A stretch of DNA of 64,000 bases from Acidimicrobiales bacterium (GTDB lineage Bacteria > Actinomycetota > Acidimicrobiia > Acidimicrobiales > Aldehydirespiratoraceae), in assembly GCA_029263175.1 (NCBI GenBank), contig JAJCXZ010000045.1, forward strand, positions 1 through 64,000, in the 5' to 3' direction. Below are positions 51,718 through 63,046 of the stretch, one piece after another (the first letter of the stretch is position 1; the number at the start of each line of letters is the position of its first letter). The position numbers and the translations under genes are program-made. The notes beneath the pieces are model-generated. The model was not told where the DNA came from and did not search any database. It worked only from the letters and a program-made list of their open reading frames with translations.

Positions 51718-51745
51718 CAGTAGCGCGAGCCGAGAATCAGTCCAG
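51718..51745 (-). promoter_or_regulatory. Possible internal promoter for the UGSC gene
   Basis: On the minus strand TGGACT and TACTGT are 16 bp apart at the end of hutH, with TACTGT only 7 nt before the ATG at 51710. No Shine-Dalgarno is visible, so a leaderless mRNA would be implied. Weak evidence. Confidence 0.25.
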
Positions 51746-53284
51746 GACGACGCCGAGCTGGGCCAGCGCTACCGCCGGTCGATCCTCCCGAAGGATCTCC
51801 TCCGCGGCCGCGAGCTCCGGCGCGAGATAGCGATCGGGACCGACCCCGTCGACCTCGGTGCGGAGAACCGAGATGGCAGCACCGGTGGACGGGCCCGGTG
51901 CCAGCGGGGCACGCAGCTCTGTCGCTCTGGCGGCGATGACGTACTCGACCGCGAGTATTCGCCGCACGTTGTCGATCACCTTGCGGAGCTTGCGAACCGA
52001 GGCCCAGGCCATCGACACATGGTCTTCTTGCATGCCCGACGTGGGCAGAGAGTCCACCGACGCAGGAGCAGCAAGGCGCTTGTTCTCCGACGCCATGGCT
52101 GCCGCGGTGTAGTGCCCGATCATCAAGCCGCTGTCGACGCCTGCCTCGGCGGCGAGGAACGGAGGCAATCCGTGGCTGCGCGTCTTGTCGAGCATTCGGT
52201 CCATTCGCCGTTCTGCGATCGCACCGACTTCAGCCAGAGCGATGGCGAGGAAGTCACCGGCGAAGCCCAGCGGGGCCCCGTGGAAGTTGCCGCACGACTC
52301 CACCCGACCGTCGGCCAGAACCATCGGATTGTCGATCGCGGAGGCGAGTTCGAATCCCGCGACGCGGCGCACATGGTCGAGCGTGTCGCGAGCGGCTCCA
52401 TGGACGGCCGGCGTGCACCGAACCGAGTAGGCGTCCTGGACTCTCGAATCGTCCGTCTTGTGGCTGGCCACGATCGGCGAGCCGTTCAGCAGCATCCGGA
52501 GGTTGGAGGCACTGACTGCCTGCCCGGGCTGAGGTCGAAGCGCCTGAAGGTCGGCCGCGAACGGACCGTCGGTGGCCAAAAGGCCCTCCACGGTGAGCGC
52601 GGTGACCATGTCGGCCTGCTGGAGCAATCGTTGTGAGTCGTCAATGGCGAGGCAGAGCATGCCAAGGATGGCGTCGGTGCCGTTGGTGACGGCGAGACCT
52701 TCCTTTTCGACGAGGGAGAGCGGTGCGAGGCCTGCAGCCTCGAGTGCTTCCGCGGCGGGGCGCCAGGCATCGGCGTAGAAGACCTTGCCCTCGCCGAGGA
52801 GGGCCAGCGCGCCGTGGGCAAGTGGCGCAAGGTCGCCGCTGGCTCCGAGCGAGCCGTACTCCGGCACCATCGGCGTGATGCCGGCATTGAGCAGGTCGAT
52901 CATGGCCTGAGCCACGAGGGGTCGGGCCCCGCTCGCGCCAAGCGCCAACGTGCGGGCGCGCAGAAAAATCATGGAGCGGACGACCTCGTGCTCGACTGGG
53001 TCTCCCATGCCCGCGGCGTGGGAGCGCACAAGCGCAGTCTGGAGGTCGCGGCGCCGCTCGGGCGGAATGGACACGTTGGCAAGCGCTCCGAAGCCCGTGG
53101 AGATGCCGTACTTGGGCTCGCCCTCGGCGAGCCGATCGACGACCGCTCGAGAGCGTGCCATCCGTTCGACGGCGGCCTCCGTCAGCGACACAGACGCGCC
53201 ATCGCGTGCGACCGCCACGACATCGGCGATGGTGACACCCGGTCCATCGAGGTGAACGTGGGGGGATGCGGAAGGGACGCTCAT
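51737..53284 (-). CDS. hutH: Histidine ammonia-lyase
   Basis: A 515-residue MIO enzyme that deaminates L-histidine to urocanate, the first step of histidine use. The Ala148-Ser149-Gly150 triad that cyclises to MIO lies in GSLGASGDLAPLAHG; YGISTGFGALANV and EKEGLAVTNGTDA are further HAL motifs. A related lyase such as ergothionase is possible in this fold, but the hutU, hutF and hutI genes across the divergent promoter favour HutH. Its start overlaps the iclR-type regulator stop by 4 bp. Confidence 0.92.
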   Translation of the reverse strand: MSVPSASPHVHLDGPGVTIADVVAVARDGASVSLTEAAVERMARSRAVVDRLAEGEPKYGISTGFGALANVSIPPERRRDLQTALVRSHAAGMGDPVEHEVVRSMIFLRARTLALGASGARPLVAQAMIDLLNAGITPMVPEYGSLGASGDLAPLAHGALALLGEGKVFYADAWRPAAEALEAAGLAPLSLVEKEGLAVTNGTDAILGMLCLAIDDSQRLLQQADMVTALTVEGLLATDGPFAADLQALRPQPGQAVSASNLRMLLNGSPIVASHKTDDSRVQDAYSVRCTPAVHGAARDTLDHVRRVAGFELASAIDNPMVLADGRVESCGNFHGAPLGFAGDFLAIALAEVGAIAERRMDRMLDKTRSHGLPPFLAAEAGVDSGLMIGHYTAAAMASENKRLAAPASVDSLPTSGMQEDHVSMAWASVRKLRKVIDNVRRILAVEYVIAARATELRAPLAPGPSTGAAISVLRTEVDGVGPDRYLAPELAAAEEILREDRPAVALAQLGVVLD

Positions 53285-53973
53285 GAGGCCGCCTCTTCGT
53301 TGTTGAGTCCGAGGTCCTGCGCGATCGCGTGAACCACGCCGACCAGCTCCCGTTCGATCTGTGTTGTCGTCTTCGCCACAAACCGGTGTGACGGGCCGAC
53401 GACGGAGACGGCGACGCCGAGCGCACCGGTGCCTGAGATGGCGAGAGACATCGCCGTGATGTCGGCTTCGACGGCGCCTGTTCGAGTGGCGGTGACACCG
53501 GCATTTGCAAACGCCTCGCCGGCCGCGCTTCCTTCAAGCGGCACGTTCTGGCCGACCCATCCCACGTGGCGGATTGCCCGCGAGCTCTCGGCGCACGCGA
53601 CGTAGGTCGCCACCTTTCCATCGAGTACGACGAGGTAGCTCGACTCGCCCGTCGCCAGCGCGAGGGCGTCGAGATGAGGCTGGGCCACGGTGACCAGTCG
53701 GCCCAACGGGCCGGCCTCGTGCAGTGTGGCCGAGATGCGTAGCAAGGTCGGCCCCGCGGAGAAGACGCCCGACCCGTCGCGCTCGAGATACCCGCGAGCT
53801 TCGAGGGCGCGAAGATGCCGCAGAGCCGTAGTCGGTGTGAGGTGGGCCGCTGCTGCGGCCGAGGCGAGGTTGCATCCGCCCGCGTCCAAGACGATCTCCA
53901 GGAGATCGAGCACTCGTCCGATCGACCGTGGCACCGGATCTCCCTGGTCCCCCAACTTCGTCAGTTCTTTCAT
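53281..53973 (-). CDS. IclR-family regulator of the hut operons
   Basis: About 230 residues. The N-terminal winged helix ([15 protein letters not shown]...[20 protein letters not shown]) is followed by an IclR effector domain ([32 protein letters not shown]). I chose ATG 53973, which has GAGGAC before it; an ATG at 54006 would sit inside a palindrome that looks like the operator. It is first in the hutH direction and divergent from hutU, so it probably controls both operons in response to urocanate or another intermediate (inference). Confidence 0.87.
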
Positions 53974-53987
53974 CTGTCCTCGAGGCG

Positions 53988-54008
53988 AGGTGTCATCTAG
54001 TGACATCT
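53988..54008. promoter_or_regulatory. Palindromic operator candidate between iclR/hutH and hutU
   Basis: TGTCA-TCTAG-TGACA (53991-54005) extends to a 21-bp imperfect palindrome with one G.T mismatch. It lies between the two divergent start regions, 15 bp downstream of the chosen regulator start and just upstream of the TTGACA box of hutU. A good candidate for the IclR protein site. Confidence 0.5.
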
Positions 54009-54019
54009 CTTGTTGCGTG

Positions 54020-54049
54020 TTGACAACGTACGGGACGGATGCACACACT
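54020..54049 (+). promoter_or_regulatory. Candidate promoter of hutU, leaderless
   Basis: A perfect TTGACA (54020-54025) is followed 18 bp later by CACACT, 7 bp before the hutU ATG at 54056. No Shine-Dalgarno precedes the ATG, which fits a leaderless transcript. The -10 match is weak. Confidence 0.4.
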
Positions 54050-54055
54050 GCAAGC

Positions 54056-55732
54056 ATGAGCACTCTCGATGTTGGAACACCGGAGGTCGGGGTCTCGGCG
54101 CCTCGCGGCACGGACCTGAACTGCGTCTCATGGCCCCAAGAAGCGGCCTACCGGATGCTGCAGAACAACCTCGATCCCGAGGTCGCGGAGAACCCGGATC
54201 AGCTTGTGGTCTACGGCGGCACCGGCCGCGCGGCGCGTTCATGGGATGCCTATCGAGCCATGCTCTCCACGCTCAGGACGCTCCAGAACGACGAGACGAT
54301 GCTCGTCCAGTCGGGCAAGCCCGTCGGCGTGCTGCGCACCCACGAGTGGGCCCCTCGAGTGCTCATCGCCAACTCGAATCTGGTCCCCGATTGGGCCAAC
54401 TGGGACGAATTCCGGCGCCTCGAGCATCAGGGTCTCACGATGTACGGCCAGATGACCGCCGGTTCATGGATCTACATCGGCACGCAGGGAATCCTGCAGG
54501 GCACCTACGAGTGTTTCGCGGAGATCGGGCGCAAGCGTTTCGGCGGGACACTGGCCGGCACCCTGACGATCACGGCCGGTGCGGGTGGTATGGGTGGCGC
54601 CCAGCCCCTGGCCGTCACCATGAACGATGGCGTCGCGCTCGTGATCGATGTCGACCAGCACATGCTCCAACGCCGTGTCGATCACCGCTACCTCGATGAG
54701 ATCGCGCCGGACTACGCCTCTGCCATTGCCCGGGTCACCGAGGCGAAACGGCTCCGCAAGCCGCTCTCGGTGGGGCTGCTCGGCAACGCAGCCGATCTGG
54801 TCCCCCGACTTCTCGCCGACGGCATCGAAGCTGACATCGTCACCGACCAGACAAGCGCCCACGACCCGCTCAGCTACATGCCGAACGACATTTCGGCCGA
54901 AGCCGCGGCCGAGCTGAAGGACAGCGATCCCCAGGAGTTCACCAGGCGTGCCCGCGGAGCAATGGCGGCGCACTGCCAAGCCATGGTCGGCTTCATGGAT
55001 GCCGGTGCCGAAGTCTTCGACTACGGCAACAGCCTGCGCGCCGAGGCGAGACTTGGCGGCTACGACCGCGCGTTCGACTATCCCGGATTCCTACCTGCCT
55101 ACATCAGGCCGCTCTTCTGCGAAGGGCTCGGGCCGTTCCGCTGGGTGGCGCTCTCGGGGGATCCTGCCGACATCGCCGCCACCGACCGCGCCGTGCTCGA
55201 GGAGTTCCCCGAGAACGAGGGCCTCGCCCGCTGGATCCGGCTCGCCGGTGAGCGAGTGGCATTCCAGGGACTCCCCGCCCGCATCTGCTGGCTCGGCTAC
55301 GGCGAACGTCATCGTCTGGGGCTCCGGTTCAACGAGATGGTCAGGTCCGGCGAGCTGAAGGCACCGGTCGTGATCGGCCGCGATCATCTCGACTCGGGGT
55401 CGGTTGCGTCGCCCTACCGGGAGACGGAGGACATGCTCGATGGCTCGGACGCGATAGCCGATTGGCCGCTCCTCAACGGGTTGGTCAACACCTGCTCGGG
55501 CGCAACCTGGGTCAGCATCCACCACGGCGGCGGCGTCGGAATCGGCCGTTCGATCCACGCCGGCCAGGTCAGCGTCGCCGACGGCACCGACCTCGCCGCC
55601 CAGAAGCTCGAACGGGTGCTCACCAACGATCCCGCCATGGGCGTCATCCGCCATGTCGATGCCGGTTATGAACGGGCCCGCGATGTGGCCGAGGAACGAG
55701 GTGTTCGGGTGCCGATGGCCCCAGAATCATGA
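54056..55732 (+). CDS. hutU: Urocanate hydratase
   Basis: A 558-residue NAD-containing hydratase that converts urocanate to imidazolonepropionate. Recognisable segments are [64 protein letters not shown] (NAD-binding Gly-rich loop), the conserved [12 protein letters not shown] and the C-terminal [19 protein letters not shown]. Length and motifs are standard. First gene of hutU-pdf-hutF-hutI-oxygenase; its stop overlaps the next start by 4 bp. Confidence 0.95.
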
Positions 55733-56298
55733 CCGTTCGCCCGATTCTCTCGATCGGCCATCCCGTGCTGCGAGAAGTCGCCGCCGAGGTAGTCGTTGAG
55801 GACATTCCCGGTGGCGAGGTTCAGAGCCTGGTCGACGATCTGATCGAGACCATGCGTGAGGCAGGTGGGGCCGGTCTGGCAGCAAACCAGATCGGCGTAC
55901 CCCGGCGGATCGTCGTGATGGAGGTCGGCGAGAACCCTCGATACCCCTACAAGCCACGGTTGCCGCTGACGGTGGCGATCAACCCGATCATCACGCCACT
56001 CGACGAGGAGACGGTCGTGATCAACGAGGGTTGTCTCTCGCTGCCGTTGCGTGGCGATGTCCGCCGCAACGTCAACATCCGAGTCGACTACGTCGATCGT
56101 GACGGCCTCGCGCACAGCGAAACGAAGCGGGGCCTCACGGCTGGGACCTGGCAGCATGAGGTCGATCACCTCGACGGTGTCCTGATCACCGACCGAGCCG
56201 CTCCCCAGTCGCTCTCCACCTGGACCGAGTTCGAAGCTCACCATCGAGATGCCTTCATCGAACGGATCACGGCATTCGTCGCCCGAGTCGGTTCGTGA
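55729..56298 (+). CDS. Peptide-deformylase-family protein inside the hut operon (candidate HutG substitute)
   Basis: A 189-residue PDF fold. All three family motifs are intact: GAGLAANQ (47-54), EGCLSLP (Cys102) and HEVDH (143-147), so a metal site of Cys and two His is expected. Canonical PDFs remove formyl from Met at nascent chains. Here the gene is coupled by 4-bp overlaps to both hutU and hutF, where HutG, the N-formylglutamate deformylase, is normally needed and no HutG is present. A role in cleaving N-formyl-L-glutamate is therefore proposed (inference). It could alternatively be an ordinary def gene. Confidence 0.88.
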
Positions 56299-57635
56299 CT
56301 CGCTACCACTGTGAGCATGCGCTGATCGGCAGCGGTGTCGAGCACGACGTCGAGGTAATGGTCCATCAGGGTCGTATCTCGACCATCACCACCGACGCGG
56401 CGCCAGCCGCCGATGCCAAACGATTGAAGGGCTTCACCATTCCGGGCATGGCCAACGCGCACAGCCACGCATTCCACCGTGCGCTTCGATCGCGGACCCA
56501 GGCCAACCGAGGCACCTTCTGGACGTGGCGCGAGCTCATGTATCGCGCCGCGGAGCGGCTCACGCCCGAGAACTACCATCGGCTCGCCCGAGCGACCTTC
56601 GGCGAGATGGCGATGGCGGGGATCACTGCCGTCGGCGAGTTTCACTACGTGCATCACCAGCCTGACGGGACGGGCTACGACGATCCCAATGCCATGGGCA
56701 CCGCGCTCCTCGCCGCGGCAGCCGAAGCAGGTATACGGATCACCTTGCTGGACACGCTCTACCTCCACGGCGGCCTCGATGCCAACGGCTACAACGACCC
56801 CACGGGAGCACAGAGCCGCTACACCGACGGTGCTGCCGATGCGTGGGTTGATCGAATTGATGGCCTTGACCCGGCTCCGGGTCAACTCATCGGAGCGGCT
56901 GTGCATTCGGTTCGAGCTGTGGATCCGGATTCGCTTGCGGTTGTTGCCGGCTGGACCGATGCCACCGGCGCGCCGATCCATGCCCATGTCTCCGAGCAGG
57001 TCGCCGAGAACGACCAATGCGTTGCCCACCACGGCTGCTCCCCTATCGAGCTCCTCCATTCCCGCGGACTGCTCCGGTCGAGTTTCAGTGCCGTACATGC
57101 GACTCACCTCAGCGCCATCGACGTTCGTCTCCTGCACGAGTCAGGGTCGACGGTGTGTATGTGCCCGACCACCGAGCGCGACCTCGGCGACGGCGTCGGG
57201 CCCACCCGAGCGTTCGCGAACGCGGAGATCCCCATCACTCTCGGCTCTGATTCCCACGCGGTGATCGACCACTTCGAAGAGGCGCGAGCCGTGGAACTCG
57301 ACGAGCGTCTCGTGAGTAGAGAACGCGGGATCCATTCCTCCGCCGCCCTCATGCAGATGGCCACCACAGCGGGTCATCGAAGCCTCGGTTGGCGCGACGC
57401 CGGCACGATCGCGGTTGGCGGACGGGCTGATCTCGTGACGGTCGCGCTCGACAGCATTCGCACCGCAGGTGCAGATCCGAGCGACCCGCTGTCCACGGCC
57501 ATTTTCTCTGCTGGCGCCGCTGATGTTCGATCGGTGGTGGTCGACGGGCGGATGATCGTCGACGATCATCAGCATCTGACACTCGATGTCGCCAGGGAAC
57601 TCGACACCGCAATCACCGACCTCATGGAGGGCTGA
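56295..57635 (+). CDS. hutF: Formimidoylglutamate deiminase
   Basis: A 446-residue amidohydrolase-fold enzyme that converts N-formimidoyl-L-glutamate to N-formyl-L-glutamate and ammonia. NAHSHAFHRALRSR gives the metal His-x-His, VSEQVAEND a further ligand region and SGSTVCMCPTTERDLGDGVGP is diagnostic of HutF. The presence of HutF rather than HutE/HutG formiminoglutamase defines the five-step pathway that requires a deformylase. GTG 56295 overlaps the PDF-like stop. Confidence 0.93.
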   Translation: MTRYHCEHALIGSGVEHDVEVMVHQGRISTITTDAAPAADAKRLKGFTIPGMANAHSHAFHRALRSRTQANRGTFWTWRELMYRAAERLTPENYHRLARATFGEMAMAGITAVGEFHYVHHQPDGTGYDDPNAMGTALLAAAAEAGIRITLLDTLYLHGGLDANGYNDPTGAQSRYTDGAADAWVDRIDGLDPAPGQLIGAAVHSVRAVDPDSLAVVAGWTDATGAPIHAHVSEQVAENDQCVAHHGCSPIELLHSRGLLRSSFSAVHATHLSAIDVRLLHESGSTVCMCPTTERDLGDGVGPTRAFANAEIPITLGSDSHAVIDHFEEARAVELDERLVSRERGIHSSAALMQMATTAGHRSLGWRDAGTIAVGGRADLVTVALDSIRTAGADPSDPLSTAIFSAGAADVRSVVVDGRMIVDDHQHLTLDVARELDTAITDLMEG

Positions 57636-57638
57636 CCC

Positions 57639-58811
57639 ATGGCACTCGCTCACTCGCTTGTCGTCGACAACATCGGTTCGCTGATCACCAACGATCCGAC
57701 CGTCGGCGAAGGTCCGCTCGGAATCCTCAGGAACGCTGCGGTGGTGATCACCGACGGCGATGTCGAGTTCGTGGGCCCGGCAGGTGCGACGGCCGACGAA
57801 CGTATCGACGCCGAAGGCGCGTGCGTGCTCCCCGGGTTCGTCGACTCCCACACCCATCTCGTCTTTGCCGGCGACCGGGCCGAGGAGTTCACCGCACGGA
57901 TGGCCGGCCAGCCCTATGACGGCGGAGGCATCCGGGTCACCACCGACGCCACCCGGGCAACCGACACCAGCGAACTCGACCGCCTCGTGCGCCTCCGCCT
58001 ACACGAGGCTCATTGGGCCGGCACAACCACGATCGAGATCAAGTCCGGCTACGGACTCAACGTGGCCGATGAGGCTCGGTCCCTCGAGATCGCGAAGCGC
58101 CACACCACCGAGACGACCTTCCTTGGCGCTCATCTGTTGCCCAGTGAGTATGAAGGCCGCGCCGACGACTACATCGATCTCGTCTGCACCGAGATGCTCG
58201 ACGCATCTCGTCCTCACGCAAAGTGGATCGACGCGTTCTGCGAAACCGGCGCGTTCGATGAAGAGCAATGCCGAGCGGTGCTCGAAGCGGGAGAGGCGGC
58301 GGGGCTCGGTATGCGACTGCACGGCAACCAGCTCGGCACTGGGCCGGGCGTGCAGCTCGCCGTCGAGTGCGGCTGTGCATCCGTCGATCACTGCACACAT
58401 CTCACTGATGGCGACGTCGATGCGCTCGCGGGCAGCGACACCGTCGCGACGTTCCTACCCGCGGCCGACTTCTCGACTCGCCAGCCCTACCCCGATGCCC
58501 GACGGGTGATCGACGCGGGTGCCACCGTCGCCATCGCGTCGAACTGCAACCCCGGCTCGTCGTACACGACGTCGATGTCGTTCTGCATCGCCATCGCGGT
58601 CCGGGAGATGAGAATGACGATCGATGAGGCGATACAGGCGGTCACCACGGGGGGAGCAGCTGCACTGCAACGTGACGATGTGGGTCACCTCTCCCCCGGT
58701 GCGGCCGGCCATCTCGTGATTCTCGATGCGCCTTCGCATCACCACCTTGCGTACCGTCCGGGGGTACCGCTCATTCGCCACACGATCGGTCCGCTGGGTT
58801 CGGAGTCCTGA
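57639..58811 (+). CDS. hutI: Imidazolonepropionase
   Basis: A 390-residue amidohydrolase that opens imidazolonepropionate to N-formimidoylglutamate. [18 protein letters not shown] gives the metal site, followed by [22 protein letters not shown] and [12 protein letters not shown] near the C-terminus, all typical of HutI. It starts 3 bp after hutF and ends 2 bp before the oxygenase gene, so the operon order is hutU-pdf-hutF-hutI-oxygenase. Confidence 0.95.
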
Positions 58812-58813
58812 CC

Positions 58814-59590
58814 ATGACCACAGCCCATATCGACTCGGGCACTCACCCGATCGATGATCCTGACTACGCGGCCGAATGCAAGGATGAACTCGACGCGGCA
58901 GGAGCGTTGGTGCTCCCCGGATTCTTCACTGAAGAGGCGGTCAAGGCGGTGGTCCGCGAATCCGCTCATCGCGAGGCGGAGGCGTTCTACGCCGACTCGA
59001 CACACAACGTCTATCTCACCCCGAGCGATGATTCGCTCACTGGAGATCACGCATTCAACCGACAGGTGGCGAGCAGCAAGGGCCTGCTGGCCGACGACCA
59101 GGTGCCGGCGGACTCGCCGCTGCGCGACGTCTACGACGACACCACGTTCCGGAGCTTTCTCTGCGATGTTCTGGGCATCGAGGCGATCTACCCGTACGCC
59201 GACAACCTCTCATCGATCAACGTGCATTTCGCCGCGGCCGGGCGCGAGTTGGGGTGGCACTTCGACAACTCGTCGTTCGCTGTCACCATGCTCCTCCAGG
59301 CCCCCGAAGCCGGTGGCGAATTCGAGTACGTGGCCGGCGTGCGCGATTCCGACGGAGGCGACGAGGGGTACGAGCGAGTCGTTTCGATCCTTGAGGAGGT
59401 CGAGCCGGTCGAGGTCCTCGAGTTCGAACCCGGCGCGCTCGTGTTGTTCCGCGGACGCGATGCGATCCATCGGGTGACTCCTACTCGGGGGGACACGACG
59501 CGAATGCTCGTGGTCTTCGCGTTCAACGATGCGCCCGGTGTTGCGCTCTCGGAATCGGCGCTCGAGACGTTCTACGGCCGCATCAGCTGA
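58814..59590 (+). CDS. 2-oxoglutarate/Fe(II)-dependent oxygenase (HalD/BesD-like fold, hydroxylase type)
   Basis: A 258-residue cupin-type oxygenase. The facial triad is H149-x-D151 (GWHFDNS) and H219 (DAIHRVTP), with Arg230 as the 2-oxoglutarate anchor. The sequence style (LLQAPEAGGEFEYV, GALVLFRGRDAIHRV) resembles the HalD/BesD amino-acid halogenase group, but halogenases have Gly or Ala at the Asp position, so hydroxylation is expected. Its position at the end of the hut operon suggests a histidine-related or amino-acid substrate; this is inference. Confidence 0.85.
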   Translation: MTTAHIDSGTHPIDDPDYAAECKDELDAAGALVLPGFFTEEAVKAVVRESAHREAEAFYADSTHNVYLTPSDDSLTGDHAFNRQVASSKGLLADDQVPADSPLRDVYDDTTFRSFLCDVLGIEAIYPYADNLSSINVHFAAAGRELGWHFDNSSFAVTMLLQAPEAGGEFEYVAGVRDSDGGDEGYERVVSILEEVEPVEVLEFEPGALVLFRGRDAIHRVTPTRGDTTRMLVVFAFNDAPGVALSESALETFYGRIS

Positions 59591-60907: not shown

Positions 60908-60994
60908 GAGGCGGGTCCGACACCGACTGAGATTGCGGCACCTCAGGCTCCGCCGTCTACGTTTGATGGACCGACACGCAAAGGGGACCCCAAA

Positions 60995-62140
60995 GTGTCC
61001 GACCGCGACCTCAAGGCGATGACCGCCGACATCGAGACTCCGGTCTTCGAGACAACGGCATTCACCATCCCGCCCCCGCTCTCGGAGGCCACCGTTGCGA
61101 TTGTCACCACCTCCTCGCTCCACCATCCGGACCAGGATGACTTCGCGCCCGCCGACACGGGCTATCGCATCCTCGACGGAAGCCGCCGGGACTATGTGAC
61201 CGGCCACTGGAGCCCGAACTTCGATTCCGTCGGCTTTGCCTACGACATGAACACGGTCTTCCCGCTGGACCGCCTCGACGACCTCGCGGCAAAGGGAGTC
61301 ATCGGCAAGGTTGCCGATCAGCATCTCTCATACGCCGGCAACCAGTTCGAACTCAGCGCGGTCCGTATCGACAGCGGTCCGGCCGGCGGCCGCTGGCTCA
61401 AGGACCGGGGTGTCGACGTCGTGCTCCTCACCCCCGTTTGACCCCTCTGCACGCGTACCGTGAGTACGCTCGCCCACGTCTTCGAGGCCGAAGGTCTCGC
61501 CACCATCGCACTCGGTTCGATGCGCAACCAGATCGAACACACGGCGCCGCCGCGGGGTCTCTTCTGCGACTTCCCACTTGGTCGTCCCCTCGGTGTCCCG
61601 GGCGATGCCGAGTTCCAGCACGGAGTTCTCGCCGTGGCCTTTGATCTCCTCGACTCGCCCGAACCGGTCGTCGCCGAGTACTCCGTGAGTATCGAAGATG
61701 ACGAATCCGACGTCGTGGCCTGCACCCTCCCGCCCCGTCATGATCCGGATGCCCACCCGGCTGTCGACGAAGCTCGCGGGTTGCGCAACGCGTACGACCG
61801 GGGCGTCGAGCTCACCGGCAATCGGGCCGGAACCGGCCGCGTAGTCGATGCCGACGGTGTTCCCGACGCAATCGAAGCATTCATCCGCGTGGCCGAAGGG
61901 ACCCCGTGGAAGGTGGCCGGAATTCCCGGCAATCCCGCTCGGGTCAGTCAAGACATTCGCGGCTACTACGAGACCGCCGCATTGGCGATGATCGACCATG
62001 CTCCTTCCGCGTGGGCCGGCACGCGCTGGTTCCTCGACAAAACGGAAACGGGCAAGGCGATTCTTGCGGCCCGATCCGCCATGCGCGATTCGGGCGCCAA
62101 ACACGGCCACTGGTTCTACTTGGCTCCTGGCGACCGCTAG
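60995..62140 (+). CDS. GrdB/PrdB-like selenoprotein with U-x-x-C motif (TGA 61439-61441 read as selenocysteine)
   Basis: Read through one in-frame TGA this encodes 381 residues of the glycine/sarcosine/betaine/D-proline reductase selenoprotein B family. Before the TGA: VAIVTTSSLHHPDQ, YDMNTVFPLDRL, KVADQHLSYAGNQ and DVVLLTPV. Across it: TPV-U149-PLC152-TRTV, a U-x-x-C redox motif. After it: EAEGLATIALGSM and LFCDFPLGRPLG. Both halves are in the same frame and neither is a complete domain alone. Known GrdB/PrdB reductively cleave C-N bonds in clostridia; this stand-alone actinobacterial version has no GrdA/E or PrdA beside it. GTG start with AAAGGGGA. A hairpin follows the TGA. Confidence 0.88.
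61453..61469 (+). promoter_or_regulatory. Putative bacterial SECIS element of the GrdB-like selenoprotein gene
   Basis: A perfect 6-bp stem GCGUAC/GUACGC with loop CGUGA starts 11 nt after the UGA, so the loop begins 18 nt after it. Spacing is nearly that of E. coli fdhF, and G is at loop position 2. Hand-folded only. Confidence 0.65.
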
Positions 62141-62152
62141 ACGAACGCCACG

Positions 62153-63046
62153 ATGAAGATCACCCACGAGAGTTCTGTCACCCCCGACCAGATCGACCAC
62201 CTCGGTCACATGAACGTGCGCTTCTACGGGGTCAACGCTCGTGCCGGCACAACTGCCCTTCTGGCCGGCTTCGGCAGAGCGATCGACGACACTCGCCTGG
62301 TCGACATCTACACGCGCCACTTCGCCGAGCAGATGGCAGGTGCCGCGCTCGAAGTCCGCACTGCCGTGCTCGACGCGAGTTCAGCCCGGATCACGCTCTA
62401 TCACGAGTTGTTCAACGTTGCGACCGATGCCGTTGCGGCAACGTTCGTGCATGGGGTCGCTCCGACGTCCGCACCCTTTGCCCCCGAGCTCGTCGCCGGC
62501 CTGAGGGCCGACGCCATCAGCCTTCCCGCGAGTGGCGCCCCACGGTCGATCTCGCTCGACACCGATCTGCTGGGCGCGTCACCGACCCTGCCGCAGGCCG
62601 TCGAGCGCGGCCTGGTTGTGCGACTCCCCCGCCAGATCGGGGCGGACGAGTGCGACCCATCCGGCGCTCATCTCGACTCGTGTCTGAGCTCGATGAGTTG
62701 GCTTGGGCTTCGACCCGATGGCCAGGCTTCGGAGCCCGCGCTCGTCGACGGCCCCAATGGCGAGAAGATGGGCTTCGCAGCCATGGAGAACCGCGTCGTT
62801 GTCAACCGGCGTGTCCGCCTCGGCGCCACGATCCAAACGTTCGAGGCCGTCGTCGCCATCGCCGACAAGGCCACCCATCGTGTGCAGTGGGTTTACGATC
62901 TCGACCGTGGCGATCTCCTGCACGCTCAGGAATCGGTGAGTGTCGCCTTCGACACCGTCGCCCGGCGGGCAATGAGTATTCCCGCGTCGATAAGGGCGGA
63001 GGACGAGAAGCGGCTTGCTCCCGAATACCTGCCGGTGCGTTCTTGA
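62153..63046 (+). CDS. Double-hotdog acyl-CoA thioesterase-like protein
   Basis: A 297-residue protein. The first half has VTPDQIDHLGHMNVRFYGVNARAGT, the Asp and HMN-type motif of 4HBT hotdog thioesterases; a second hotdog-like half follows (GADECDPSGAHLDSC...ALVDGPNGEKMGFAAMEN). The substrate is unknown. It lies 12 bp after the GrdB-like selenoprotein on the same strand, so co-expression is likely, and 127 bp before the MFS gene. Confidence 0.8.
   Translation: MKITHESSVTPDQIDHLGHMNVRFYGVNARAGTTALLAGFGRAIDDTRLVDIYTRHFAEQMAGAALEVRTAVLDASSARITLYHELFNVATDAVAATFVHGVAPTSAPFAPELVAGLRADAISLPASGAPRSISLDTDLLGASPTLPQAVERGLVVRLPRQIGADECDPSGAHLDSCLSSMSWLGLRPDGQASEPALVDGPNGEKMGFAAMENRVVVNRRVRLGATIQTFEAVVAIADKATHRVQWVYDLDRGDLLHAQESVSVAFDTVARRAMSIPASIRAEDEKRLAPEYLPVRS

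Follow-up and report, generated by a model that had tools for sequence, protein, structure and literature searches.

A long PrdB-related protein with a probable UGA-encoded selenocysteine in an Acidimicrobiales bacterium

PrdB-type selenoproteins have been known from seawater since 2005. According to the PrdB sections of two metagenome surveys, they are abundant in the Sargasso Sea, with 42 selenocysteine (Sec) forms (2005, PMC1088965), and in the GOS data 235 Sec and 110 Cys forms were counted (2008, PMC2398784), which put them with the most frequent selenoproteins in counts from seawater. D-proline reductase appears under TIGR04483 in a 2026 review (PMC13188914). FarB, a GrdB-type protein of Cloacibacillus, has been proposed to cleave the C-F bond of fluoroacetate (PMC10838667). 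We analyzed a gene of this superfamily in a stretch of 64,000 nucleotides (the window; contig JAJCXZ010000045.1, assembly GCA_029263175.1, Aldehydirespiratoraceae). The long stand-alone form that it encodes is a variant of the known seawater proteins. We found no description of this form, or of its missing partner, in the literature covered, with most subscription journals outside that coverage.

The in-frame TGA and the hairpin behind it

The features of the locus are as follows.

60980..60986, + strand, AAAGGGG, likely ribosome-binding site judged from sequence, 8 nt before the GTG
60995..62140, + strand, selenoprotein coding sequence, GTG start, TGA as Sec, TAG stop, 381 aa
61016..61639, + strand, PrdB-like alpha/beta domain, residues 8-215 (TIGR04483, 102 bits; AlphaFold2 pLDDT 91.7)
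61439..61441, + strand, in-frame TGA, probable Sec149 of UPLC, site conserved as TGA in relatives
61448..61450, + strand, Cys152, invariant (120/120 sequences), presumed resolving Cys of U-x-x-C
61453..61469, + strand, SECIS-like hairpin, stem 61453-61458/61464-61469, loop 61459-61463
61700..62137, + strand, C-terminal helical domain, about residues 236-381 (~145 residues), no Pfam match
61721..61723, + strand, Cys243, invariant (120/120 sequences), entry to the C-terminal domain, absent in PrdB
62153..63046, + strand, 4HBT_2 double-hotdog thioesterase, 12 nt after the stop, probably in one transcript with the selenoprotein gene, adjacent to it only in the 4 same-genus genomes

The window sequence holds the GTG start at 60995, a single TGA at 61439-61441 and the TAG stop at 62138-62140 in one frame, and readthrough gives a product of 381 aa with U149 in the context TPV-U-PLC-TRT. 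An earlier, sequence-only reading of the window had reported an in-frame TGA at the U-x-x-C position and a perfect 6-bp hairpin 11 nt after it (GCGTAC-CGTGA-GTACGC), and both were found at the coordinates listed above. No further candidates for TGA readthrough were detected in the window with filters that also miss the gene at 60995-62140, and this negative carries no weight.

We observed TGA at the identical codon in 80/80 best relatives from named public genomes. In a pooled set TGA stood at 149/150 sites and TGC (Cys) at 1/150; some of these loci are one genome taken from two collections, and the independent sites are somewhat fewer. The lone TGC form has a continuous frame of 429 aa with the motif CPMC and belongs to a different actinobacterial family. 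When the gene was compared with three same-genus genomes, synonymous changes outnumbered non-synonymous ones upstream of the TGA as well as downstream (e.g. 53 vs 13 and 90 vs 24 codons, respectively). As judged from these codons, purifying selection persists 3' of the TGA.

The hairpin was analyzed at the level of both codons and base pairs. Among 121 fourfold sites of 114 aligned genes, those with the lowest entropy were codons 153, 154, 155 and 156, that is the hairpin region (constraint in this region vs the rest, p = 1.6e-4). Standard pairs occupied 99.2% of hairpin pair cells in 44 diverse sequences. There were 21 double-sided changes: at one pair U-A is replaced by C-G in 18 sequences, at another A-U by G-C in 3; kinship of the sequences inflates these counts, and the pattern is nonetheless clear. 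The observed pairing and double changes were reached by 0 of 500 shuffles, and slid versions of the hairpin scored far lower. A search of the window against Rfam gave no RNA family match. Covariation and synonymous constraint mark the hairpin as a SECIS-like element under selection.

The machinery for Sec insertion is present in the same genome: SelA (386 bits), SelB directly behind it on one contig, SelD (355 bits) and tRNA-Sec (64 bits, threshold 47). SelD itself (C3:15979-16917 of this genome, G000; locus L205) contains one in-frame TGA and is probably a selenoprotein too. Relatives of the window protein were detected in 48 of 100 related genomes, nearly all matches with one TGA. They occurred in 47/80 SelA-positive and 1/20 SelA-negative genomes (Fisher p = 8e-6), and the lone SelA-negative carrier is an incomplete genome (84%).

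Since TGA is kept at 149/150 sites, the hairpin shows constraint and compensatory changes, the Sec machinery is present and the codons beyond the TGA remain under purifying selection, the codon at 61439-61441 is very probably read as Sec149. The TGA might instead be a genuine stop or an error of sequencing, leaving two proteins or a pseudogene. We give this almost no credence, as it is already contradicted by the same four observations and by the existence of a continuous Cys version.

Family, architecture and partner subunits

The protein had been described from its sequence as GrdB/PrdB-like, and membership of the superfamily was retained: PF07355 (GRDB) matched residues 28-146 with 25.7 bits, above its gathering cut-off of 22. 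The narrower names did not hold. TIGR04483 (PrdB) gave 102 bits, below its NCBIfam equivalog cut-off of 300. TIGR01918 (36.1 bits, cut-off 65.45) and TIGR01917 (30.2 bits, cut-off 602.2) were not passed either, and the GrdB-type models gave 30-37 bits, each under its cut-off. The same five models were matched by 22/22 members of the family alignment. We also aligned the protein with two annotated PrdB proteins, from Peptoclostridium and Terrisporobacter. The first 220 residues can be aligned, but this protein has UPxC at the place of the PrdB motif UGTC, and PrdB ends earlier, so that the C-terminal 145 residues are foreign to it. By these comparisons the selenoprotein belongs to the GrdB/PrdB superfamily and is clearly nearer PrdB than GrdB; it is PrdB-related, yet neither PrdB nor GrdB.

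AlphaFold2 gave a confident two-part model (pLDDT 91.7), consisting of an alpha/beta domain and a helical C-terminal part. In this model Sec149 lies in the alpha/beta domain, where a helix begins behind a strand. The C-terminal domain, for which no Pfam match was found, is predicted to fold by itself as well (pLDDT 88.2). H71, S73, D77, H110, C152 and C243 never vary in 120 long sequences, and U149 is present in 119/120. There are also shorter relatives that lack the C-terminal domain, among them Cys forms carried by alphaproteobacterial plasmids.

No sequence relative of the protein or its profile was found in the PDB, and Foldseek returned nothing significant, either for the whole model or for the C-terminal domain. 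The best scores of a second structural aligner were Z 7.8 for the whole model (129 residues, 3.7 A) and Z 3.5 for the C-terminal domain (93 residues, 4.7 A). Both are within the range of common arrangements, and we infer no fold relationship from them. The structural matches listed were generic Rossmann and periplasmic-binding folds with Z below 8.

The sequence-only reading had seen no Stickland reductase partners near the gene. This was borne out and could be extended genome-wide for two families: neither PF09338, the pyruvoyl partner of PrdA/GrdE type, nor GrdA (PF04723) was found in any of nine carrier genomes (the own genome, 97% complete, and eight others), within the limits of incomplete assemblies. 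As positive controls, the same searches find both families on clostridial plasmids, with PF09338 in both plasmid controls. On the Peptoclostridium acidaminophilum plasmid, the PF09338 match (record 258999-260039) lies directly upstream of the annotated PrdB (L201:7971-8684) and is missing from the gene table.

Gene neighbourhoods, paralogues and rival functions

The sequence-only reading had pointed to a thioesterase and an MFS carrier near the gene. The thioesterase is the neighbour just downstream in all four same-genus genomes, and it was found in none of the other loci; the MFS gene of the window was not found beside the selenoprotein gene in the other three same-genus genomes. This setting is thus limited to the genus or less and does not define the selenoprotein family. 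Oxygenase genes occur near the window gene and several of its relatives.

Upstream in the window (51737-58811) lies an apparent histidine-utilisation set with ammonia-lyase-like, urocanase (profile-checked) and amidohydrolase-type genes, and a peptide-deformylase-like ORF (55729-56298) inside it. A link of the selenoprotein to these genes was dropped, as it holds only within the genus. Between them and the selenoprotein gene, in all four same-genus genomes, stands a 2OG-Fe(II) oxygenase (58814-59590 in the window) with HalD (halogenase D, 60 bits) as its best Pfam match.

Other clades have settings of their own. Gene calls from ORF similarity are noisy in these GC-rich loci, and we relied on no cluster that tblastn did not confirm. 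Fifteen loci of a marine acidimicrobial clade (L105:8273-18687 and 14 similar ones) share a set of genes on a single strand for an SDR, the selenoprotein, an MFS transporter and a fused indolepyruvate-type oxidoreductase, and most of them also have EamA, a PhyH-type dioxygenase, cystathionine beta-synthase and cystathionine gamma-synthase/lyase. In another clade the gene directly upstream encodes an enoyl-CoA hydratase, and beyond it come a divergent acyl-CoA synthetase and a sulfatase. No neighbour is common to all clades. The settings are fixed within clades and different between them, which would be easier to reconcile with a reductase that has adapted to several substrates than with a single pathway.

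All characterised relatives act in complexes. The selenoprotein could therefore be part of a multi-subunit reductase like D-proline reductase, with a second subunit unrelated to PrdA/GrdE, encoded elsewhere or by the clade-fixed neighbours (the thioesterase in the genus, the enoyl-CoA hydratase upstream, or the SDR/EamA/MFS/indolepyruvate oxidoreductase group). We consider this quite unlikely, given the genome-wide absence of PF09338 in nine carriers and the lack of any neighbour shared by all clades. Some relatives have a GST-like gene, P450s and oxygenases beside them and others acyl-CoA genes, as might be expected of a selenol-dependent transferase, isomerase or detoxification enzyme that works by nucleophilic catalysis without net reduction. 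Such an enzyme is very improbable: Cys152 is invariant in 120/120 sequences, as expected for a redox cycle and not for simple nucleophilic catalysis.

The own genome encodes four further relatives, 33-48% identical, each with exactly one in-frame TGA (C102:1049-2197, C50:26573-27667, C111:49942-50595 and C49:75916-76515). Two of the four are apparently short forms without the C-terminal domain. A fatty acid hydroxylase and a pirin are among the neighbours of these paralogues. In a tree made by a quick method, with arbitrary rooting and labels from record titles, gammaproteobacterial sequences fall into three separate supported clades among the acidimicrobial ones, and Binatia stand beside one of these clades. 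This pattern suggests horizontal transfer of the selenoprotein gene. A scan of viral contigs revealed no relative.

The protein adenylyltransferase SelO is encoded directly next to a PrdB-like gene in two places, in a gammaproteobacterium with the Sec form (L116:11152-12672) and on a Roseomonas plasmid with the Cys form (L203:5803-7275), and one fragment lies further off. This adjacency, the variable neighbourhoods, the UxxC redox motif and the classing of PrdB among thiol-dependent redox proteins in the survey sections on it (PMC1088965, PMC2398784) would agree with a general thiol/selenol oxidoreductase or peroxide reducer, in which UxxC reduces disulfides or peroxides and there is no dedicated carbon substrate. 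We regard this function as unlikely. The homology is to a substrate-reducing subunit, transport and catabolic genes adjoin the selenoprotein in two conserved clusters, and several paralogues per genome suggest several substrates. No thioredoxin-family structure was among the matches listed, which is not decisive.

Proposed reaction and comparison with known systems

On balance we favour, by a modest degree of belief, a single-chain, PrdB-related Sec-Cys reductase, in which UGA 149 is read as Sec by way of the hairpin and which turns over a small electrophilic metabolite with no pyruvoyl group involved. Its chemistry, substrate class and electron donor are proposed as follows. UGA 149 would be decoded as Sec with the help of the hairpin directly 3' of it, and one chain would combine the alpha/beta domain, with the Sec149-Cys152 pair at a helix start, and the helical C-terminal domain with Cys243. 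The selenolate of Sec149 may attack an electrophilic carbon or heteroatom of the metabolite, probably beside a carbonyl or thioester, and a leaving group would depart. Cys152 would then attack the selenium-bound intermediate, giving the product and an Se-S bond, which a cellular thiol system could reduce back, perhaps via Cys243. Unlike D-proline or glycine reductase, the enzyme would have no pyruvoyl subunit to activate an amine; activation would therefore have to come from the substrate itself or from the protein's own residues, for which the invariant His71, Ser73, Asp77 and His110 are candidates.

The precedent of FarB suggests that the substrates of the GrdB-type superfamily extend beyond amino acids; FarB nevertheless keeps an E-type subunit. 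No precedent for single-chain reduction was thus found in the superfamily, and the neighbours, which differ between clades, give no consistent pointer to the substrate; both points weigh against the reductase that we favour. More tentatively, single-chain selenoenzymes of marine, probably aerobic bacteria might cleave C-X bonds reductively without a pyruvoyl subunit, possibly on acyl-CoA-type or activated carbonyl substrates, a generalization that we hold as doubtful.

We observed the Sec coding capacity and its conservation, the domain architecture, the invariant residues and the absence of the known partners. The absent partner, the protein's own architecture and invariant residues, and the several divergent paralogues per genome turn an old PrdB annotation into a testable enzyme family. 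The PrdB-type selenoproteins of seawater owe their name to an anaerobic enzyme of clostridia, the partner of which is absent here, and an annotation that treats UGA as a stop would truncate and hide such genes.

Several described systems can be compared with this locus. The 'Proline reductase PrdB' proteins of marine metagenomes are likewise UxxC selenoproteins of marine bacteria; the PrdB sections of both surveys (PMC1088965, PMC2398784) describe them without organism, domain architecture or partner test, and the comparison is one of motif and habitat. FarB (PMC10838667) is likewise a GrdB relative, with proposed cleavage of a non-amine C-X bond and an MFS transporter encoded with it, but it comes from anaerobic Synergistota and has the E-type partner FarE. 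In Alphaproteobacteria, Roseomonas and Haematobacter plasmids encode a 'glycine/sarcosine/betaine reductase selenoprotein B family protein' that is also stand-alone (31-33% identity) and has CPxC at the same motif position, but it uses Cys instead of Sec, has about 305 aa and lacks the long C-terminal domain. Protein B of glycine, sarcosine and betaine reductase (GrdB/GrdF/GrdH; TIGR01918, PF07355) has the UxxC motif, and residues 28-175 are homologous to GrdB in its C-terminal part; here the N-terminal half is missing, and no GrdE or GrdA was found in the genome. PrdB of clostridial D-proline reductase (TIGR04483) is homologous over residues 8-215 and likewise has Sec three residues ahead of Cys, with UGA and the downstream sequence read as Sec. 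It differs in having UGTC and about 240 aa, in contrast to UPxC (UPLC) and 381 aa here, where an extra helical domain with the invariant Cys243 is present and no PrdA-type protein (PF09338) was found in the genome.
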